Shown: piece after piece, positions 1 through 10,119 of the stretch | Position numbering within the stretch: position 1 is the first letter of the stretch | Layout of the letters: every line of letters begins with the position of its first letter | Source of the DNA: Erythrobacter neustonensis | GTDB taxonomy: Bacteria; Pseudomonadota; Alphaproteobacteria; Sphingomonadales; Sphingomonadaceae | Assembly (NCBI RefSeq): GCF_001663175.1 | Contig: NZ_CP016033.1 | Location: 1,612,001-1,676,000, forward strand | Direction: 5' to 3' | Length of the DNA stretch: 64,000 nucleotides | Made by a program: the position numbers and the translations under genes | The notes under the pieces: model-generated | Told to the model about the DNA's origin: nothing | Database searches by the model: none | Seen by the model: the letters and a program-made list of their open reading frames with translations, nothing else

Positions 1-974
1 GGCCGACCGGCGCGGGCAAGAGCCAGCTCGCGCGGCGCATCTACGAATTGAAGGCCAGCCGCCATCGCCTGTCCGGCCCGTTCGTGGAGGTGAACTGCGC
101 AACGCTCAAAGGCGACAGCGCGATGTCGGCGCTGTTCGGGCACCGCAAGGGCGCTTTCACCGGCGCAATGGCCGATCGCCCAGGGCTGCTGCGCAGCGCG
201 GACGGCGGAATGCTGTTCCTCGACGAGATCGGCGAGCTCGGCCTCGACGAACAGGCGATGATCCTGCGCGCGGTCGAGGAGGGGCGCTTCCTGCCCCTGG
301 GCGCCGACAAGGAGGTGACGAGCCGCTTCCAACTTATCGCCGGGACCAACCGCGAGGTGCTCGCCGAGGTCACGGCGGGGCGTTTTCGCGAGGACCTCTT
401 CGCGCGCCTCAACCTCTGGACCTTCCGCCTGCCCAGCTTGGCCGAACGGCCCGAGGATATCGAACCCAACCTCGAATACGAGATGGAGCGCTTCGCCGCG
501 GCGCAGGACCTGCGGGTTACCTTCAACAAGGAGGCGCGCGAAGCCTATCTCGCCTTCGCCACCAGCCCTGCCGCCCTTTGGCGGGGCAATTTCCGTGACC
601 TGTCAGCGAGCGTCACGCGCATGGCGACTCTCGCGCCTGCAGGACGGATCGACATGGCGACCGTCGATCAGGAAATCGCGCGGCTCAGGCTGCTGTGGTC
701 GAAGGGCGCATCGGGCGAGCCCGACGTCCTTGCTGACGTCCTCGGCACTGCGGAACTGGCGAGCCTCGATCCATTCGACCGCGCGCAGCTCCTGGCGGTC
801 GTGCGCGTTTGCCGCCGGAGCGCGAGCCTGTCGGAGGCAGGACGCACTTTGTTCGCCGCCTCGCGCCAGCGCCGCAGCTCGACCAACGACGCCGATCGCC
901 TGCGCAAGTATCTCGCGCGGTTCGGGCTCAGCTTCGACAGTGTGCAGGTTCTGCAGCGTTCCTCTGAAGTGTAG
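1..974 (+). CDS. rtcR: RtcR-type sigma-54-dependent activator, 5'-truncated by the window edge
   Basis: This is the central and C-terminal part of a bacterial enhancer-binding protein. In frame 3 it opens with a Walker A (PTGAGKS), then the sigma-54 contact motif GAFTGA, a Walker B (LFLDEIGEL) and an arginine-finger region (GRFREDLFARLN). The detailed sequence matches RtcR, the regulator of the rtcBA RNA-repair operon, better than NtrC-like activators. RtcR proteins are about 530 residues, and 323 codons are visible here. The N-terminal CARF-like sensor domain and the start lie upstream of the window. The C-terminal section should hold the DNA-binding helix-turn-helix. No rtcB or rtcA follows, so the target operon should lie to the left. 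The family is clear; the target is inferred from the family. Confidence 0.85.
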   Translation, partial: PTGAGKSQLARRIYELKASRHRLSGPFVEVNCATLKGDSAMSALFGHRKGAFTGAMADRPGLLRSADGGMLFLDEIGELGLDEQAMILRAVEEGRFLPLGADKEVTSRFQLIAGTNREVLAEVTAGRFREDLFARLNLWTFRLPSLAERPEDIEPNLEYEMERFAAAQDLRVTFNKEAREAYLAFATSPAALWRGNFRDLSASVTRMATLAPAGRIDMATVDQEIARLRLLWSKGASGEPDVLADVLGTAELASLDPFDRAQLLAVVRVCRRSASLSEAGRTLFAASRQRRSSTNDADRLRKYLARFGLSFDSVQVLQRSSEV

Positions 975-1280
975 GCCAACTTAGGGAGCGGCGCCTCCCG
1001 ACCCAACATACGCCGTTCCGACGACGTAATCGGAACGACAGCTCACGCCGCAAGCGGACTATGGGCAGCTGCGCAAATGCTCATTACTCGCCACGACCAT
1101 CAAGGCTGATGCCCGCTACGTCAGTCCGCATCGGCGTTGATCGCAGCCGCGTTGATACCCGAGACGATCAAGGACGCCCTCGAGCGCGAGCTGAAGCGTC
1201 AGGGCGTTGGGCGTTGGGATCAGCTAGTCGAGATCAGCGATATACCTCTACGGCGTTGATCGTCAAAAGCGCAACGGTGA
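975..1280. other. Intergenic stretch without a supported gene
   Basis: The stretch separates rtcR from the convergent DUF3800 gene. The only suggestive content is a short frame ending at the stop at 1257-1259. Its last part reads IKDALERELKRQGVG and then WDQLVEISDIPL, which looks like the tail of a real protein, but an in-frame stop at 1107-1109 leaves it without a start. It may be a gene remnant at the left edge of the accessory region. I see no RNA gene or clear terminator. Confidence 0.4.
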
Positions 1281-2366
1281 TCAGTTGCCGCGGCGCCGAT
1301 GCAGGGGCTCCAGCAGGCTGACCATTTGATCGAGCATGTCTGGTCCAGTCCGGCGTGGCATAGGTTCGTCGGCATAGTCTTGGTGCGGGCGCACACCGTT
1401 GTGCGTAAGTTCACCGGCGCCGAGCTGGATCAGCTCCATCACGAACGGGTCCTTGCCGCGCTCGTCGAAAGACAGCGCCGCCTTTGCGCCGAGACCGGCG
1501 ATTACGTCACACAGCTGAACCGCCGCAGAGTCATGCGACCGCACGGCGGTGGTGGAGCGCACGCGGAGCGGGAATTCGACACTCGTCCCGTCGCCCATTA
1601 TCACGGGGCCGGGTTCGCATTCGTCGCGCAGGATCGTCTCCCACACATCGCGTTGCCGAAGGAAGTTGCTGGATTCGTCATGCACGACGTGGAAGTCTTC
1701 GGGCCTCTGCTGCCGCCAGTGCACGACGGTTGACACGACTGCGGTGAGTTGGATTTCGCTGCTGTCCTTGAACGTCTCCAGGTCGGGATTGGAGATCTCG
1801 AACGTCCTAGCGGCCTCAGCGAGCATAGTGAAGACCGTCGATATCGGGTGCTTGGTACTGTTCGCAGTCTGCGTGAGGTGCGTGCGCAGTGCATTCATGG
1901 TATCTCGCTTGGGCGCGCGAGCGAACGCATCCCAGCGGCTGGCTGTCTCGTCGTATAGCGACTCCCCGCCGAAGCGGCGGAGATCGCGGTGGATCGTGTT
2001 CATGTATCGGCGGGCATAGCCGTTGCCGTAATAGTCGTAGCCACCTGCGGTGAAAATGGGTTCCAGCAGATAGTCGAACATCTTGACGATCAACGAGAAG
2101 CGCTTGTCGATGATGTAGAGGAACAGCCGGTCGGCGATGGCCGGGATCTCGCCTGACAGTGAGCGCAGGCCGTTCCGATGGGTGTCGCGCTTCCAGATGT
2201 TGCCGAACTTGAACTCCGCCCCTTGGTAGCGCGGGAAGCACCGGCGCAGGATAGCTGCGGCTTCTTCGTCGTCGATCAGCGACGATGCGATAGTGAAGAA
2301 CGGTTGGTCGGGATTGTATAGGTCGTCGCCCGTGTAGCCGGACTCATCGATGTAGATCGTCGTCAT
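1281..2366 (-). CDS. DUF3800 domain protein
   Basis: The 361-residue product starts MTTIYIDESGYTG, the hallmark N-terminus of DUF3800 proteins (acidic IDESG strand). It ends with the second conserved block QLCDVIAGLGAKA, whose aspartate is also typical. DUF3800 is thought to adopt an RNase H-like fold, is often found in mobile and defence regions, and its biochemical role is not firmly established. I chose the ATG at 2366; an in-frame ATG two codons upstream (2372) is equally possible. Upstream in-frame codons extend further but encode sequence unlike the family and run into the divergent neighbour. That neighbour, at 2508, starts 141 bases away, so the two probably share a control region. 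Function is unknown. Confidence 0.75.
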   Translation of the reverse strand: MTTIYIDESGYTGDDLYNPDQPFFTIASSLIDDEEAAAILRRCFPRYQGAEFKFGNIWKRDTHRNGLRSLSGEIPAIADRLFLYIIDKRFSLIVKMFDYLLEPIFTAGGYDYYGNGYARRYMNTIHRDLRRFGGESLYDETASRWDAFARAPKRDTMNALRTHLTQTANSTKHPISTVFTMLAEAARTFEISNPDLETFKDSSEIQLTAVVSTVVHWRQQRPEDFHVVHDESSNFLRQRDVWETILRDECEPGPVIMGDGTSVEFPLRVRSTTAVRSHDSAAVQLCDVIAGLGAKAALSFDERGKDPFVMELIQLGAGELTHNGVRPHQDYADEPMPRRTGPDMLDQMVSLLEPLHRRRGN

Positions 2367-2507
2367 GCGCATGATGTGGGTAACGAGCCGCCATTGCGGA
2401 AGGTCTCGCTCCGCCAGATCCGTTGAGAGATACGCTGCTTGTGTCGATGGCCCGAATCGCTGCATTCGCATGTGGCGAGGGGGAACCCGATCTATTAGCT
2501 TCCTGGC

Positions 2508-4709
2508 ATGGCTACGAACATCACCAGCGCCGAAGAACTCGCGCGCGCGCATCGCGATGGCAAAATCGCCGCCGAGACATTTGATGAAACCCTGCGGGAG
2601 CTCGTCGAGTCGATAGTGGCCGCCGATGCCGTAGAGGTCTTAGCCCGTGCCGGCTTTCACCTGCTTATGCGCGGTCCCGACCGCCCCGAACAGGTCGGGA
2701 AGGAAGGTGTTGAACTTTCCCACCTCGAACTGATCCAGGCGCTTGCACTGTCGACGGCGCGGGGCGGAGGAGAGGCCGACACCGACTATCCGGCGATCAC
2801 GTCCAGGGTGCTCAACCTGATCGGGCGCAATGTGGCTGCGTATCGTGATCGCACCAAGCTGAAACTGAACGGCGACCAAGCGCATGATGAGCGCACACGC
2901 CTGCTCGCACTGATACAGAGCTGGACGCTAGCGGTTCGCGGCGCTCGGCATGAATTCCAAACACGTCGCTACGCCTTTGCGCTTGCAAAGATCGTGGATG
3001 CTTCCTTCCACCATCATCATGGCTGCACGGCTACCAGTTGGGTTCAGGCGATCGGACGATTCTACGATCTTGTAGAGGAACGTCTCCAAGCCGAGCGCGC
3101 ATCCCTCCGCCGCTGGGTTCGCAAGAAATCTGGCATCGCAATGATCCACGCCTTCGTTGAGGGTCTAGACGACACAATGGCTGCCGAGATCTCGACGGCT
3201 GCTATGCCGTATCGCTATGATCGTGATCACGTCACCGCGCTGCTGATAAACCGGTTCGAGCAACGGCTTAGCGGCGCGTTTACGCTGCGCTATGAGGACT
3301 TGGTCGGCGAGACACCGACGAAAGAACGGGATGCTCTGATCTGCCTCCTACGCCGATGCGCCCTGCGGTTCGGTGAGGTTGACAACTCGGCGCTTGAACG
3401 CCTCCATCTCGACAATCCCGTGCGCATGAGGCCGTTCATCGAGCTCGACGCCAAAAGCTTCTTTTGCCCAGTGCCTCATATTCTTGGCGTCCAGATGAGC
3501 GAGATTCTCGAGGATTTGTGCGGCATTAACTTAACGCTTAAAGAAAAGGCCGAGAAGGCGAGAGCGGACCTGCTCGAAGAGCAACTCGCGGATGTCGTCC
3601 GACGCTTCCTGCCAAGCGCCCAAGTGCGCGAGAAGGTGAAGTGGAGCGAGGATGGCGGGATCACAACTTGGGAGTCCGACCTTGTTGCAGTGATCGACAA
3701 GACCGTCCTAGTGTTCGAGGCCAAATCGGCGAAGATCAGCTCGGCGGCGCGTCGAGGCGCCGTCAACAGCCTGAAAGACGCCCTAAAGGAGCTTGTAGTC
3801 AAGCCGTCACGCCAGTCGCTGCGCTTCAAAGCGCGGGTCAACAACGCAGACGATCCGCTCCAATTCGACACTGCCCAAGGCCCCTTCACGATTGATGCAG
3901 GCGCCATACGGGCGGTCATCCGAGTAAACATCTTGCAGGATCCTGTCGGGCCGCTCTCCTCGCACTGGCCGCAGCTTGCCCGCGCGGGTTTCGTGCCGGC
4001 CGAGCTCGACATCGCACCCTCAATGACCGTCTTCGACCTTGAAACCGTGTTCGAGACGCTTTCACTCGAGATCGAGCGCTGTCATTATCTCGCCCGTCGC
4101 GCCGAATTGGAGCGCAACGCCGTTTACACGGCTGATGAGCTCGACCTCCTCGCGGTTTATCAAGAACATCAATTTAACATTGGTGAGGCCGAATTCGACG
4201 GCACCCGCCTCGAATGGTATGGGGCTTCGCTTAGGCTTACCCCGGAATATTCGGCCCGTAGGGCAGAGGGGACACTTTCTGTTCAGATGCAGCGGACCGG
4301 CTTCTGGACAGGTATGCTCGTGTCGCTCGAGCAGAAGCGGGAGGTGGGCTGGATCCGTCTTGGGCATCGACTGCTCAACGCCAATGTGAACGTCCAGCGC
4401 CGTGTCGAGCGCCTATACCAAAAGGGCATGCAGGCAGTCTCTCGGGATCCTGGCAAGTTCTTCACTTCCGGAGTGTCGTTCGGATCTAGGTTCCGGCTCG
4501 ACACTATCTCCGTGAGTGTCGGTGCGCCCGACTCGCCTGAGCAGTTCGAGGCTAACCTCCAATACGCAGCGAAAAGCGCATTCGAACAGGGAGGACAGAA
4601 CTCGCTTTTGGCAGTCTACTGGTTCGTTCCTAAGTCGGGTGAAGCATATGACTTCATCGGCGTGATGGGCAGACAAAGGACTGCCAGTGGCGTCGTCAGA
4701 GAAGTTTAA
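2508..4709 (+). CDS. Large uncharacterised protein with a PD-(D/E)xK-like nuclease core
   Basis: I do not recognise this 733-residue protein as a named family. Around residues 375-410 it has the order WSEDGG, WESDLVAVID, then VLVFEAKS. That is the D...ExK pattern on two hydrophobic strands expected of PD-(D/E)xK nucleases such as Mrr- and NERD-like enzymes. The roughly 370 residues before it look alpha-helical and mixed, and the C-terminal 300 residues are a separate mixed alpha/beta region. There is no signal peptide or membrane segment. It is divergent from the DUF3800 gene and lies 720 bases upstream of a dead integrase, so it is probably island cargo. Nuclease activity is an inference from the motif; a defence role is a further inference from context. 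Confidence 0.65.
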   Translation: MATNITSAEELARAHRDGKIAAETFDETLRELVESIVAADAVEVLARAGFHLLMRGPDRPEQVGKEGVELSHLELIQALALSTARGGGEADTDYPAITSRVLNLIGRNVAAYRDRTKLKLNGDQAHDERTRLLALIQSWTLAVRGARHEFQTRRYAFALAKIVDASFHHHHGCTATSWVQAIGRFYDLVEERLQAERASLRRWVRKKSGIAMIHAFVEGLDDTMAAEISTAAMPYRYDRDHVTALLINRFEQRLSGAFTLRYEDLVGETPTKERDALICLLRRCALRFGEVDNSALERLHLDNPVRMRPFIELDAKSFFCPVPHILGVQMSEILEDLCGINLTLKEKAEKARADLLEEQLADVVRRFLPSAQVREKVKWSEDGGITTWESDLVAVIDKTVLVFEAKSAKISSAARRGAVNSLKDALKELVVKPSRQSLRFKARVNNADDPLQFDTAQGPFTIDAGAIRAVIRVNILQDPVGPLSSHWPQLARAGFVPAELDIAPSMTVFDLETVFETLSLEIERCHYLARRAELERNAVYTADELDLLAVYQEHQFNIGEAEFDGTRLEWYGASLRLTPEYSARRAEGTLSVQMQRTGFWTGMLVSLEQKREVGWIRLGHRLLNANVNVQRRVERLYQKGMQAVSRDPGKFFTSGVSFGSRFRLDTISVSVGAPDSPEQFEANLQYAAKSAFEQGGQNSLLAVYWFVPKSGEAYDFIGVMGRQRTASGVVREV

Positions 4710-5425
4710 CAGGAGGCCAGCCAAAAGGATTGTGATCGGACTACTTACTGGGTGATCACGGCTCCAAGCCTAATCCCCGCCACTTTCCTCACTCGACCGC
4801 CTGAACACTGCCGTCCTGCTACCGGCCCAGTTCCGATGCTCTTTCAACGAGAGCGGATGTTCGTCGAATGTCCGTTGCGGACCGGAGCTGCCGTTCGAGA
4901 GGTTGCGTACTTACGACGGCTTTGTCCCACCACCCGCCAATTCGCCCATGCAACACCCCGAAGTAGCTCGCATCAGAAGGGCTCTTGTCGGTTGGCCGGG
5001 TCTTCTTGGCAGACGGGCTCATATTCGATGCGCCGGGGGCCAGGCTGACGGCGGCTTGGTCGCGTTGCGAAACGAAAATCCGGAATCGAACCGGGTGTAA
5101 AAAGCTGGTCCTTGACCTTCTCACACAGCAGGATACATTCCCTCTCACAGGCACCAAAAACCCTTGGTTTTCTGAGGTTTTCAGGTGGGTTGAAATGAGG
5201 ATTGGAATCCCTTCACCCGCTCCAGCCCTCCCTTCCCAAACAGCCCCAGAAAGTCTATAAAACCCTTGAAAATCCGAGGGATTTGGACCCTCGGTCGTCC
5301 GAGAATGTCCCTATTCTTCCTGCTGCATCCGGGGCCCTTGGGGGCCACATCGCGGGGCCAAGGCATTTCGGGCATTTGGACTGGCCCCCACGTGGGGACC
5401 ACGAGCTGGGAAAGGACCGAGGGCC
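4710..5425. other. Non-coding island stretch upstream of the integrase
   Basis: No convincing gene lies here. The notable contents are a tRNA-Gly-like 3' fragment (listed separately at 5197-5224) and a perfect 12-base palindrome CCCCACGTGGGG at 5386-5397. The palindrome lies 28 bases before the integrase start and could be a binding site for the recombinase or a regulator. Frames running antisense here end inside the integrase and show no family features. Confidence 0.4.
5197..5224 (+). repeat. tRNA-Gly 3'-end-like fragment, candidate phage/island attachment site
   Basis: These 28 bases end in CCCTTCACCCGCTCCA. From memory of alphaproteobacterial tRNA-Gly(GCC) genes, this matches the T-arm, acceptor strand, discriminator and encoded CCA. 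It differs at three T-stem/T-loop positions (GGATTGGAATCC where GGGTTCGATTCC is usual). No D-arm or anticodon arm lies upstream, so it is not a tRNA gene. It sits about 200 bases before a P4-type integrase, a family that typically recombines at tRNA 3' ends. I infer an att site left by integration. Confidence 0.55.
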
Positions 5426-6541
5426 ATGCCGCTGACAGACGTTGCGATCCGGAACGCCAAACCGCGCGATAGGCCCTACAAGGTGGGCGACACTCTCGGC
5501 CTGTTCCTGCTGGTGCAGCCGTCCGGCGGCAAGCTTTGGCGGGTCAAATATCGCATCGACGGCAAAGAGAAGAAGCTGGCGATCAGCATCTATCCTCAGG
5601 TTGGTCTCGCGGAGGCGCGGCGCAAGCGTGATGCCGCCCGCGAGTTGGTCGCTGTCGGCAAGGATCCCGGCCGCGAGAAGCAGCGCGAGAAAGTGCGGTC
5701 GCGCATCTAGGCCGAAACTACCTTTGACGCCATCGCCGCCGAATTCTGCCAAAAGCGCAGGCGTGATGGTCAAAAGGCCTGAGCGGTCAGCACGGCGACG
5801 CGATGCGAGTATTTGCTGTCGTTGCTCAAGGGATCGATCGGCAAGCTACCCATCACGGATATTGAACCCGCTGACGTCTTGATTGCCGTTCGCAAGATTG
5901 AGCGCAAGGGCCAGTTAGAAAGTGCCCGCCGCACCCTGCAACTGGCTGGAGCGGTGTTCCGCTATGCAGTGGCAACCGCCCGCCTCAAGTCTGATCCAAC
6001 CCGCGACCTGCGCGGTGCGCTGACCGCGCCGACGGTCACCCACTACGGCGCGATCATCGATCCGGCGCGCGCGGGCGAACTGCTGCGCGCCATCGACGGT
6101 TACGAAGGTCAGCCGATCACCAAGCTGGCGATGCAACTGGCCCCGCATGTCTTCGTTCGCCCCGGCGAGCTGCGCCACGCAGAATGGAACGAATTCGATC
6201 TCGAAGGGGCGCTGTGGACCATCCCGGCGGGCAAGACCAAGATGCGCAAGGATCACCTCGTCCCGCTCTCACGCCAGTCGATTGCGATCCTGGAGGGCCT
6301 CCGTGCCCTGACCGGTCCCGACGGCTACGTCTTCCCCTCGATCCGCTCCCGCAAGCGCCCGATGAGCGACAACACGATCAACGCAGGCCTGCGCCGATTG
6401 GGCTACTCCACCGACGAGATGACCGCCCACGGCTTCCGCGCCATGGCCTCAACCCTCCTCAACGAAAGTGGCAAGTGGCACCCCGACGCAATTCAGCGGG
6501 CATTGGCCCACGGCGACAGCGACAGAGTCCGCGCGGCCTAG
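5426..6541 (+). pseudogene. P4-type tyrosine integrase, inactivated (two nonsense codons and C-terminal truncation)
   Basis: The frame opening MPLTDVAIRNAKPRDRPYK is the DUF4102 N-terminal domain of P4/CP4-57-like island integrases. The same frame continues after two stops, a TAG at 5708 and a TGA inside QKA*AVSTATRC where relatives carry tryptophan, into the core and catalytic domain. Visible there are RPGELRHAEW (catalytic Arg), KTKMRKDHLVPLS, HGFRAMASTLLNE (HxxR) and ALAHGDSDRVRAA. The frame then stops at 6539-6541, exactly where the family has its AY nucleophile tyrosine and 30-40 more residues. The DNA beyond belongs to a TonB receptor. It is therefore an inactive remnant, and single-base nonsense changes rather than frameshifts did the first damage. 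Confidence 0.85.
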
Positions 6542-8472
6542 TGAAGGACGAGGGCTTTGCCGACATATTCGCTCAGTCGATCGGGGATGCGCTGGAGCTA
6601 ACCCCCGGTGTCTTCGCCGACACCAGTGCCCCGCGTGAAAGCCGTATCTCGATCCGTGGGTCGGGCCTCAATTCCAGCTTCGAACGGCGCGGCCTCACCG
6701 TGCTGCGCGACGGGGTGCCGATCAGCCGCGCATCGGGCGCGACCGAGTTTCAGGAGGTCGATCCGCTGACGGTGCGCTACATGGAGGTGTTCAAGGGCGC
6801 CAACGGGCTGCGCTACGGGGCGGCATCGCTGGGCGGGGCGGTCAATATCGTCAGCCCGACCGGGCGCACCGCCCGCGCGCCGATTGCCCTGCGTGCCGAG
6901 GGTGGCAGCTTCTCCACCTTCCGCGGCAATGCCTCGCTCTCGGGCAAGAGCGGCGATGTCGATTACTGGGGCGGGCTCACCGGGCTGACCAGCGATGGCT
7001 ACCGCGAGCACAGCGAGGTGCGCAGCCTCTATGGCCACGGCAACCTCGGATGGCGGGTGTCGGACAATATCGAGACCCGCTTCTACGTCACCGCGCTGTC
7101 GGACAATTTCGAGCTGGCAGGCAGCTTGCGCCTTGCAGACGCGCTCGCAAATCCACACGCGGCAGGCCGCCCGGTGACGGCGGGGCCGTTCTTCCCCGGC
7201 GGGCTGGTGACCGTGCTCGACCCCGGCCCGGTCGTGGATGACTGGGATCGCAACCTCGATGTCTACTGCGTGTCGAATCTGACCATTATCGACTTGGGCA
7301 GCACTGATCTTGAGTTCGGCGCATGGTATACACGCAGCAATCTCGACCACGCGATCACCCGCTTTGCCGGGATCATCGTGCAGGGCAAGGATGAGGTTGG
7401 TGTCTCGACGCGCCTCTCCGGCAGTCTCCCTTTCCTCGCCGACCAGACTCGTTGGCAGGTGGGGGCGATCTATGCCTTCTCCAGCAATGACGCGAAGACC
7501 TCCGCCAACAATTCGGGCGCGCGCGGCGCGCTACGGACGCGCTCGGATCAGGATTCGGACACGCTGACGGTCTATGGCCAGGCCGATCTCGGGCCGACCG
7601 ACGCCGTCACTCTGATTGCAGGCGGACAATATGCCCGCGCCACCCGCGATGTGACCGCAATCCTCAATGCGGTGACGGGCCGGGGCGAGTATGACCAGTT
7701 CAACCCGCGCGTCGGCCTGCTGGTGGATGCAGCCGAGGACATCCAGTTCTTCGGCAACATCAGCCGCAGCTTCGAAGCGCCCAGCCTTGCCGATCTCACC
7801 AGTGGCGGAGCCTTCCCCTTCGCGCCATTGGACCCCCAGCGAGCGACCGTGTTCGAAGTGGGCACGCGCGGGCAGGCGGGGATCGTCTCGTGGGACGTCG
7901 CGCTTTACCGGGCGGAGCTGGAGAACGAGTTTCTCGACCTCGCCGTGCCGGGCGCGCGCGGACTGGTGACGGTGACGGCCAATGCCGACAAGACCGTGCA
8001 TCAGGGGCTCGAATTCGGGCTCGATGTGCGGCCCTTCAAGGCGACGCTGGAGAAGAACGGTCAGGCCCTGCGGCTGAGCGCGGCCTATACCTTCAACGAC
8101 TTCGCCTTCGATGATGACGCGGTCTATGGCGATAACCAGCTTGCCGGGGTGCCGCGCCATGTGCTGATCGCCGAGGCGCGGTTCGATCAAGTGGACAGGT
8201 TCTACCTCTCCACCACCCTGCGCTGGATCCCTGATGGCCCGTTGGCGGACTATGCCAACACCGAGAGGGCTCCCGGCTACGAAACTGTCCAGATCACCGC
8301 CGGGGTCACGCTGACCGAGGGGATCGAGCTGTTCGGATCGGTCGAGAACCTGTTCGACGAGGTGTTCATCTCCAACGTCACCACCAACGCCAACCAGCGC
8401 CTCACCAACGAGGCGATCTACACCCCCGGGCAGGGCCGCGCTGTCTTTGGCGGCCTGCGCGCGCGGTTCTGA
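6541..8472 (+). pseudogene. TonB-dependent outer-membrane receptor, 5'-truncated
   Basis: The 640-codon frame covers most of the plug (DALELTPGVFADTSAPRESR, RGSGLN, GLRYGAASLGGAVNIVSPTGR) and the whole 22-strand barrel region. It ends in the classic terminal phenylalanine (GGLRARF). The signal peptide, TonB box and first part of the plug are missing. The sequence joins the broken integrase directly at 6541, where a GTG happens to begin the frame without a ribosome-binding site. Family members are about 700-750 residues. The next gene is a PepSY reductase, so this was an iron or siderophore uptake locus. The product would not be exported, so I call it a pseudogene created by a deletion or insertion junction. 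Confidence 0.8.
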
Positions 8473-8483
8473 GGGAGGCAGCG

Positions 8484-10119
8484 ATGAGCATGAAGACCAA
8501 GACCGCGCGCTGGTCCTATTCCAAGCATCAATGGCTGGGGCTGATCGGCGGAGTCAGTCTGCTGGTGTGGGGCCTCTCCGGCCTCACCCATATTGCCATG
8601 GTGCTGTTCGGCCCGCAGCAGGCGGCGTTCATGCCGCCTGCGGCCACGGTCGCGCTCGAAGGGGCGCGGCCGATTGCGCAGACCCTTGCAGAACAGGGCA
8701 TCGCCGGGGCGGTAGCGGTGAAGACCGTCCCCGCGCCCGGCGGCGGGGTGCTGTGGCAGGTTACCGCGGCAGCAGACGGCGCGCGGCGCTACTTCCGCCC
8801 CGCAGACGGCAGCGAAGTAACCGGCGGTGACCGGGCGCAGGCCGAATTCCTCGCCCGCCACTACCTCGCAACTGACCGGCCGATCACTGCGGCACGGCTC
8901 CAGACCAAATTCGATGCCGACTACCCTTGGGTCAACCGCTTGCTGCCGGTGTGGAAGCTGGAGTTTGCGGGGGACGACGGCCTCACCGCCTATGTCCACA
9001 CCGAAACCTCCAGTCTCGCGGGCGTCAACAATACCACCAAGACCCGCCTGCCATCGATGTTCAGAGCGCTGCACACCTGGGAATGGGTGCCGCCGGGGAT
9101 GGACAGGCTGCGTGTCGTGGTGATCCCGCTAATGGTGGGGAGCTTGCTGGCGCTTGGCCTGACCGGCGCGGCGATGCTCGTGACGGTGCGGCGCAAGAAG
9201 CAGCTGCCGGGAGCGCGGGGGTGGCATCGGATGGCTGGCTATGCGCTGGCCCTGCCGCTGATCATGTTCTCGGCCTCGGGCATCTACCATCTGATCCAGT
9301 CGGCGCTGGCACCGCCCGTCAGCCAGCTTAAGATGGGCAAGCCCGTCAATGTCGCGAGCGGCAAATGGCCCGTCGAGGCCGACTGGGCGCTGATCGCCAA
9401 GGGGCGGGACATCGCCTCGGTCGCGCTGGTCGAGGGGGCCGAGGGTCAGCCGTTCTACCGCGTCGGCCTTGCGCCAAAAGGCCCGATGGGTGGCGGCGAG
9501 CATGACCACACCCCCGCCAAGACGGCAGCGGCGGATCATGGCATGGCAGGCCACGACCACGCGGCGATGATGGCGGCACAGGCCAAGGCCCCCACCACCG
9601 ACGCCGAAATCCGCGAGGCGCGCTTTGCCGGGATCAAGCTTGATGGCCCGGCGATCTACCTCGATGCCGCCACCGGTAACGTGGTGAATTCCGGCGACAA
9701 GGACCTTGCCCTTGCCATCGCCCGCCGCTTCACCGGTGCGCCCGACAGCACGGTGACGGGGGGTGCAGCTCGTCACCCGCTTCAGCCACGAATACGACTT
9801 CCGCAACAAGCGCCTGCCGGTCTGGCGGGTCGATTACGGCGCGCCGGTCAAGGCCAGCCTGTTCGTCGCTACCGGCACGGGCGTGCTGGTCGACCGGGTA
9901 GCGGACGGGGAGAAGCCCGAACGCCTCGTGTTCAGCTTCATCCACAAGTGGAACTTCCTGTTCCCCGTCGGACGCCTCGCGCAGAACGTGATCGTGGGCG
10001 TGTTCGCCATAGCCCTCATCGGCTTCATGGCGGTGTTGGGCCTGGGAATGGATCTGCTCCGTCGCCTTCGGGCGCGGCTTCAGGGCCAGAGGCAGGACGA
10101 GGACGTTGGCACAACGTAA
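8484..10119 (+). pseudogene. PepSY-associated membrane protein (ferric reductase-like), frameshifted
   Basis: The start at 8484 follows GAGGGAGGCAGCG, a good ribosome-binding site 11 bases after the receptor's stop. The product begins with a membrane helix (LIGGVSLLVWGLSGLTHIAMVLF) and has further helices near residues 210-230 and 250-270. It carries a histidine/methionine-rich loop (HDHTPAK, DHGMAGHDHAAMM) that could bind metal. A run of six G at 9758-9763 shifts the frame. Beyond it the correct continuation (VTRFSHEYDFRNKRLPVWRVDYG and a last membrane helix) lies in another frame and ends at 10119. Five G would restore one protein of about 545 residues. PepSY-TM proteins beside TonB receptors are thought to reduce or release siderophore iron. 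A sequencing error is the alternative. Confidence 0.75.

Follow-up and report, generated by a model that had tools for sequence, protein, structure and literature searches.

Do two genes that start 141 bases apart and run in opposite directions form one nuclease system, or are they independent passengers of the same mobile element? The question is raised by a locus near the start of a 64,000-nucleotide stretch of the Erythrobacter neustonensis genome (contig NZ_CP016033.1, positions 1,612,001 to 1,676,000), which we call the window, where a gene for a DUF3800 protein and a gene for a protein of 733 residues are arranged in this way. According to an original prediction, the two could be nuclease-type components under one control region, carried as defence or mobile cargo. 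Our data favour, with fair though not high confidence, the second alternative: both genes are intact, ride as defence-type cargo on a genomic island at a tRNA-Gly gene, and probably protect against phage independently of each other instead of as the halves of one system.

Two intact genes for predicted nuclease-type proteins

The DUF3800 gene occupies positions 1281..2366 of the minus strand (ATG at 2366, coding sequence 1284-2366, stop codon reaching to 1281) and encodes 361 residues. A longer, mechanically listed open reading frame of 423 residues is probably not the gene, because the start MTTIYIDESG is kept in relatives. The IDESG...QLCDVIAG pattern seen earlier is present at residues 6-10 and 284-291, and the protein matches Pfam DUF3800 (PF12686) with an E-value of 7.5e-10 and 40.1 bits, against a curated cut-off of 21, as well as PHROG 12991 (1.8e-34). 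Relatives number 75 at E <= 1e-3, one being the window's own record, and relatives also occur in two viral contigs and two phage records. Residues D7, E8, H229, D230, Q284 and D287 are invariant and D87 is nearly so; the predicted structure has an RNase H-type fold with conserved acidic residues. We regard the protein as a predicted RNase HII/HIII-like nuclease. With a dN/dS of 0.156 relative to the copy in Sphingomonas Leaf32, the gene is intact and constrained and no chance open reading frame. Rfam gave no match to a DUF3800-linked RNA motif in window positions 1-9000, where a microRNA-family match far below cut-off was the sole exception to an empty result.

Two further observations concern DUF3800 relatives (labels beginning with L denote loci fetched for the analysis). 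At L038:7094-7924, on a Sphingomonas plasmid, the gene directly upstream of DUF3800 has by eye a possible PD-(D/E)xK motif and no Pfam match. The record P0116, which combines DUF3800 with an OLD-like TOPRIM stretch, seems to be two neighbouring genes joined, lacks the C-terminal active-site part and was not used.

The 733-residue protein is encoded at 2508..4709 on the plus strand. Its predicted model comprises a helical N-terminal part, a NERD-like PD-(D/E)xK core at about residues 342-476 and a C-terminal alpha/beta part. The core is built from a helix (342-367), strands at 372-381, 386-396 and 399-406, and a further helix (419-446), with an acidic residue and E-x-K on adjacent strands; a nuclease fold is therefore predicted where one had been expected, around residues 375-410. 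The motifs that had drawn attention to it, ESDLVAVID and FEAKS, are found at 389-397 and 403-407. Enzymes that we take to have the PD-(D/E)xK fold occupy the upper part of the structure-match list for the model. The putative active-site residues E357, E389, D391, E404 and K406 (codons starting at 3576, 3672, 3678, 3717 and 3723, within 3576..3725 of the plus strand) are invariant in 54 sequences. At least 53 relatives at E <= 1e-3 were found when the 7998 best candidates were scored. The gene is intact and constrained (dN/dS 0.208 relative to the Leaf32 copy), and no chance open reading frame either. Predicted fold and conserved residues support a nuclease-type protein in this case as in that of DUF3800, and to this extent the original prediction is borne out.

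The 733-residue family is patchily distributed, being present in 10/396 genomes of the order sample, 5/385 of the class sample, 11/394 of the Rhizobium-family sample and 17/295 of the Sphingomonas-genus sample. When family alignments and three distant members were searched against the sequences of solved structures, SEC-C tails were the only meaningful matches. Such a tail (SecA-type zinc) ends the distant members L066 and L073, as well as L033 and, by eye, L085; the window protein has none. Immediately before the family gene of L006 and L007 (at about 8.7-10 kb) comes a gene of TIR/SEFIR-like appearance by eye (FYSWQSD); the L006 copy has no Pfam or PADLOC match.

The two genes are rarely neighbours elsewhere

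Loci of the 733-residue family were collected from genome contigs, from the order, class, Rhizobium-family and Sphingomonas-genus samples and from plasmids and were fetched with their flanks (some of which end at contig ends); profiles for the two families and for GajA and GajB were then run against them. After removal of duplicates there were 47 loci besides the window, 10 close and 37 distant, some of them partial or broken. The tenth close relative is a broken remnant on a Komagataeibacter plasmid (L128/L129), and L011 and L031, which are fragments or broken, were counted as distant. Left out were G019 (a weak match of 66 residues), L037 (judged by length and content to be the same record as L011), and L115 and L119 (the same contigs as L029 and L030). 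On the DUF3800 side, short matches in G069 and G372 were left out, and four of the 161 plasmid records with a DUF3800 match were examined; the census profile represents the window's subfamily only, and may have missed other DUF3800 types.

A DUF3800 gene of the window's subfamily lies within 2 kb of the 733-residue family at 3/47 loci (L002, L004 and L005), and one further weak match is found about 8 kb from the family gene in L123. The divergent layout, with positions 2367-2507 between the two starts as originally described, was found once more, in Leaf32 (L002), inside a block of 92.9%-identical DNA. L004 and L005 are sister Rhizobium loci, in which DUF3800 stands upstream and on the same strand as the family gene. 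Their DUF3800 proteins are 23-28% identical to that of the window (L004: 28%, tblastn 5.8e-24); the L004 protein has no Pfam match of its own, and the L005 gene is split in two frames. For L004 we rely on tblastn because the alignment behind the census profile includes the sequences of L004, L038, L039 and L040, which makes their profile scores circular.

The view from the other partner is similar. None of nine DUF3800 loci (L038-L040, L049-L051, L092, L093 and L127) has the 733-residue family in the stretch fetched, and among eight Pfam DUF3800 matches, spread over five of the nine genomes of L002-L010, only that of Leaf32 adjoins the family gene. The order samples for the two families (395 genomes besides the window's own) were taken as one draw, as the listed genomes agree; nine genomes have the 733-residue family, five have DUF3800 and none has both, with 0.11 expected by chance. 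With such an expectation, avoidance could not show up in so small a sample, which also gives no sign of linkage. At these 47 and nine loci, then, adjacency does not recur across lineages, and an obligate pair was rejected for this lack of recurrence. A phage-encoded pair was likewise rejected, as no relative of the 733-residue protein was confirmed in IMG/VR or phage records.

The intergenic region (2367..2507, 141 bases, of which 132 are identical in Leaf32) has no Rfam match and no sigma-70-like site, in a scan that is weak for alphaproteobacteria. A shared promoter was dropped as a candidate, since nothing in the gap pointed to one. The idea of two components under one control region is thus not supported: elsewhere the genes live mostly apart, no such site was found in the gap, and the divergent pair largely fails to recur across genomes.

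A tRNA-Gly island with defence-type cargo

Both genes are found on a 25.5-kb tRNA-Gly island together with restriction-modification genes and rtcABR, and their position at its end identifies them as island cargo. The att-like boundary is a 3'-end fragment of tRNA-Gly(ccc) at 5206..5224 (plus strand), 18 of whose 19 bases equal those of the tRNA gene. The intact gene is located 25.5 kb to the left of it (G000:C1:1591663-1591736); ARAGORN found no whole tRNA in the window. The att fragment that had been suspected beside the genes is thus real, and so is the dead integrase. Neither cargo gene was found in the 20 genomes of the same genus listed in the order samples.

Positions 1158..4936 of the window form a 3.8-kb cargo block shared with Sphingomonas Leaf32 (L002:8651-12461; blastn, 92.9% identity over 3812 columns), and blastn detected no further homology between window positions 1-9000 and the Leaf32 locus. 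The block has a G+C content of 57-62%, compared with 67-69% on its left side and 63-69% beyond position 6000. It begins with the C-terminal remnant of a DUF2971 gene (1158..1259, plus strand); the gene is whole in Leaf32 (L002:7781-8752, Pfam DUF2971 3.3e-9), and the window keeps only its last part. A few kb further on, Leaf32 has a Lamassu pair (PADLOC; LmuB 5.7e-173, LmuA 3.7e-117).

Read from the left, the island holds, besides other genes, a DUF6538 protein and then a DNA methylase and a ResIII/RE_endonuc protein, which we read as type III or type III-like restriction-modification. Next come a protein that marginally matches a predicted 3'-5' exonuclease family, rtcA, rtcB (by eye) and rtcR, and finally the DUF2971 remnant, DUF3800 and the 733-residue gene. 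The methylase and ResIII/RE_endonuc pair and the rtc genes lie at G000:C1:1598401-1612974 (L078, L079), overlapping the start of the window, which holds the 3' part of rtcR (1..974, plus strand; Pfam RtcR 8e-79 on the full gene in L079); rtcA (Pfam RTC 1.9e-73 on the full gene in L079) and rtcB are just upstream, outside the window. The DUF6538 protein in the left part of the island is probably an integrase; DUF6538 is connected with recombinases, and Pfam gave no integrase-domain match in this protein. In this setting both genes are cargo of a defence-type mobile island, as had been proposed.

Beyond the att fragment lies the broken P4-type tyrosine integrase (5426..6541, plus strand), whose Pfam Arm-DNA-bind_3 and Phage_integrase matches are separate pieces in different frames: the arm domain (5426-5707) runs into a stop at 5708-5710, and the catalytic part (5813-6541) is in another frame. 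It is apparently what is left of a second element at this tRNA-Gly site. A frame identified by eye as a TonB-dependent receptor (6541-8472) starts abruptly after this remnant; it seems to lack both start and signal part, as though a single deletion reaching from the integrase into the receptor had removed the end of one and the beginning of the other.

Gabija genes near the 733-residue family

Gabija is a stronger neighbour of the 733-residue family than DUF3800. Within 5 kb of the family gene, both GajA and GajB are present at 5/10 close relatives (L004-L008) and at 0/37 distant ones; of the latter, L065 shows a GajA-like match alone and L073 a GajB-like match that is weak. PADLOC, run on L004, L006 and L008, assigned the pairs to three types (PDLC00100/00149 in L004, 00086/00104 in L008 and 04168/04173 in L006, with best GajA E-values of 6.9e-300, 1.8e-264 and 1.8e-73, respectively), and the genes so named were used to build the GajA and GajB profiles. 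L005 and L007 were typed by GajA identity (94.5% to L004 and 97.8% to L006). The three different types make at least three joinings with the family gene likely. In L004, L005 and L008, the family gene, GajA and GajB follow each other in this order on one strand, and the family gene is separated from GajA by about 100-170 bases. The company is not fixed, however. L009 has a 92%-identical family gene and no Gabija in the 10 kb downstream (upstream, the sequence ends at the contig end), and in the 13.8 kb fetched of a Croceicoccus plasmid a 94%-identical GajA is accompanied by a helicase gene but by no family gene. The three-locus profiles detected neither GajA nor GajB in the whole window, and no paper combining the NERD domain and Gabija was present in the literature searched.

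Two arrangements near Gabija genes also involve DUF3800. In the Rhizobium loci L004 and L005, a one-strand array at about 5.5-16 kb comprises an ATPase with a weak GajA match, a putative HNH protein (by eye), DUF2026, DUF3800, the 733-residue family, GajA and GajB. On a Rhizobium phaseoli plasmid (L127:8491-15723), DUF3800 follows a GajA-GajB pair at about 2.4 kb without the 733-residue family; this is not an unbiased count, because L127 was chosen for being in two match lists.

Relation to known systems

Among solved structures, PDB 9wuf ('Cryo-EM structure of Upx') is, going by its name, presumably the listed defence protein Upx. The 733-residue protein shares 12% identity with it, at a Z score at which matches of helical proteins may mislead, and the Upx chain is longer, at 1212 residues. 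Sequence searches gave no Upx match in PDB sequences or PADLOC, although the presence of an Upx model in PADLOC 2.0.0 was unchecked. Upx is a single gene. From Shedu (SduA, PDB 8ps4) the family differs in that its PADLOC matches include no Shedu-named model, and from the CARF-PD-(D/E)xK effectors Can2 and Card1 the window protein differs in that it has no CARF domain match. It is itself neither GajA nor GajB.

There is also a likeness to NERD domains. The window protein has the E-x-D ... E-x-K pattern, the bridging relative L085 scores above the NERD cut-off, 11/54 family members match NERD weakly (more than match any other Pfam family), one relative is named a NERD domain-containing protein in UniRef, and 2/54 members weakly match the viperin-associated NERD model of PADLOC (best E 7.4e-4). 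The window protein, on the other hand, has no NERD match and indeed matches no Pfam family at E <= 1, and its core is embedded in 733 residues without a helicase or kinase match. A profile comparison with the NERD domains of twelve relative loci aligned the expected residues at a probability below 1%, in a poor set that includes short proteins which by eye belong to another family. NERD domain nucleases (PF08378) are reported in Mokosh type I and Nhi-like systems (PMC10952713) and in PglW (PMC12839542). Genes for NERD-type nucleases are also described at the edges of Dnd systems, in some cases on the other strand, with their products as co-effectors or as a backup (PMC10853773, PMC12839542). 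The last of these arrangements fits the loose company kept by the window genes.

For DUF3800 (PF12686), two papers describe an RNase H fold and a role as accessory nuclease of some CRISPR V-A2 and VI-F loci (PMC10910872, PMC12669027). The window protein agrees with the family in its score above the curated cut-off and its predicted RNase H-type fold. It differs from the CRISPR-linked members in that no Cas gene was noticed beside it, though no search aimed at Cas was made, and in the lack of the Rfam DUF3800 motif from positions 1-9000.

Discussion

Could DUF3800 and the 733-residue protein nevertheless act together, as a genuine nuclease system of two genes that share one divergent control region? 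The same layout in Leaf32, where both proteins are 94-95% identical, and the adjacent co-directional DUF3800 genes of two Rhizobium genomes would suit such a system. However, the Leaf32 case is one transferred DNA block, the Rhizobium genes differ in orientation and are distant in sequence or split, and neither the census of relatives (3/47 and 0/9 loci), nor the nine genomes of close relatives (1/8 DUF3800 matches), nor the 395 order genomes show the expected partnership, making this quite unlikely. It is unlikely, too, that the 733-residue family is an optional Gabija accessory, an extra nuclease for GajA and GajB of which the window copy would be a stray. The proximity at half of the close relatives, across three PADLOC types and with GajA-GajB immediately behind the family gene on its own strand in three of those five, speaks for it; the absence of a full GajA-GajB pair from all distant relatives and of either gene from the window, the L009 and Croceicoccus cases, and the ordinary clustering of genes in defence islands, which could explain the company, speak against it.

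To a joint version of these two ideas we give only a slim chance. The 733-residue family would then be an undescribed Upx-like nuclease and optional third Gabija component, the Rhizobium array DUF3800 - NERD-like - GajA - GajB a four-gene unit in which the RNase HII-like and PD-(D/E)xK nucleases back up or widen Gabija, and the window the two-nuclease half alone. Similarly improbable is that the genes serve DNA or RNA repair, plasmid exclusion or island upkeep instead of phage defence. Related folds do include excision and resolution proteins (XisH and Hjc are among the structure matches), and the RNA repair operon rtcABR is next door, but the patchy distribution of the 733-residue family and its recurring defence-gene neighbours argue otherwise.

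We therefore return to two independent defence-type genes. From what was computed, namely gene integrity, purifying selection, predicted folds, conserved residues, the island and defence-gene context and the loose pairing, we infer cleavage, its substrate, its trigger and an anti-phage effect. The 733-residue protein is most probably a self-contained, restriction-type effector, whose helical N-terminal part would serve as sensor or clamp for an invader-related signal; as proposed for it on the model of Upx or Shedu, sensing would switch on the central NERD-like PD-(D/E)xK DNase. The DUF3800 protein most probably cleaves RNA or RNA-DNA hybrids during infection in the manner of RNase HII, by analogy with the DUF3800 proteins thought to act so beside some CRISPR effectors.

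Both proteins, then, belong to known kinds, as does the island that carries them; our searches turned up no description of the 733-residue family as a defence family. If our reading is true, this family constitutes a class of defence nuclease that acts alone and is not yet listed, thinly but widely spread and missed by the PADLOC models used, and its recurring place beside three kinds of Gabija would offer a lead to nucleases that assist a common defence system. The RNase HII-like model for the DUF3800 protein, in turn, suggests D7, E8, D230 and D287 as a candidate active site for a domain that also accompanies CRISPR effectors.

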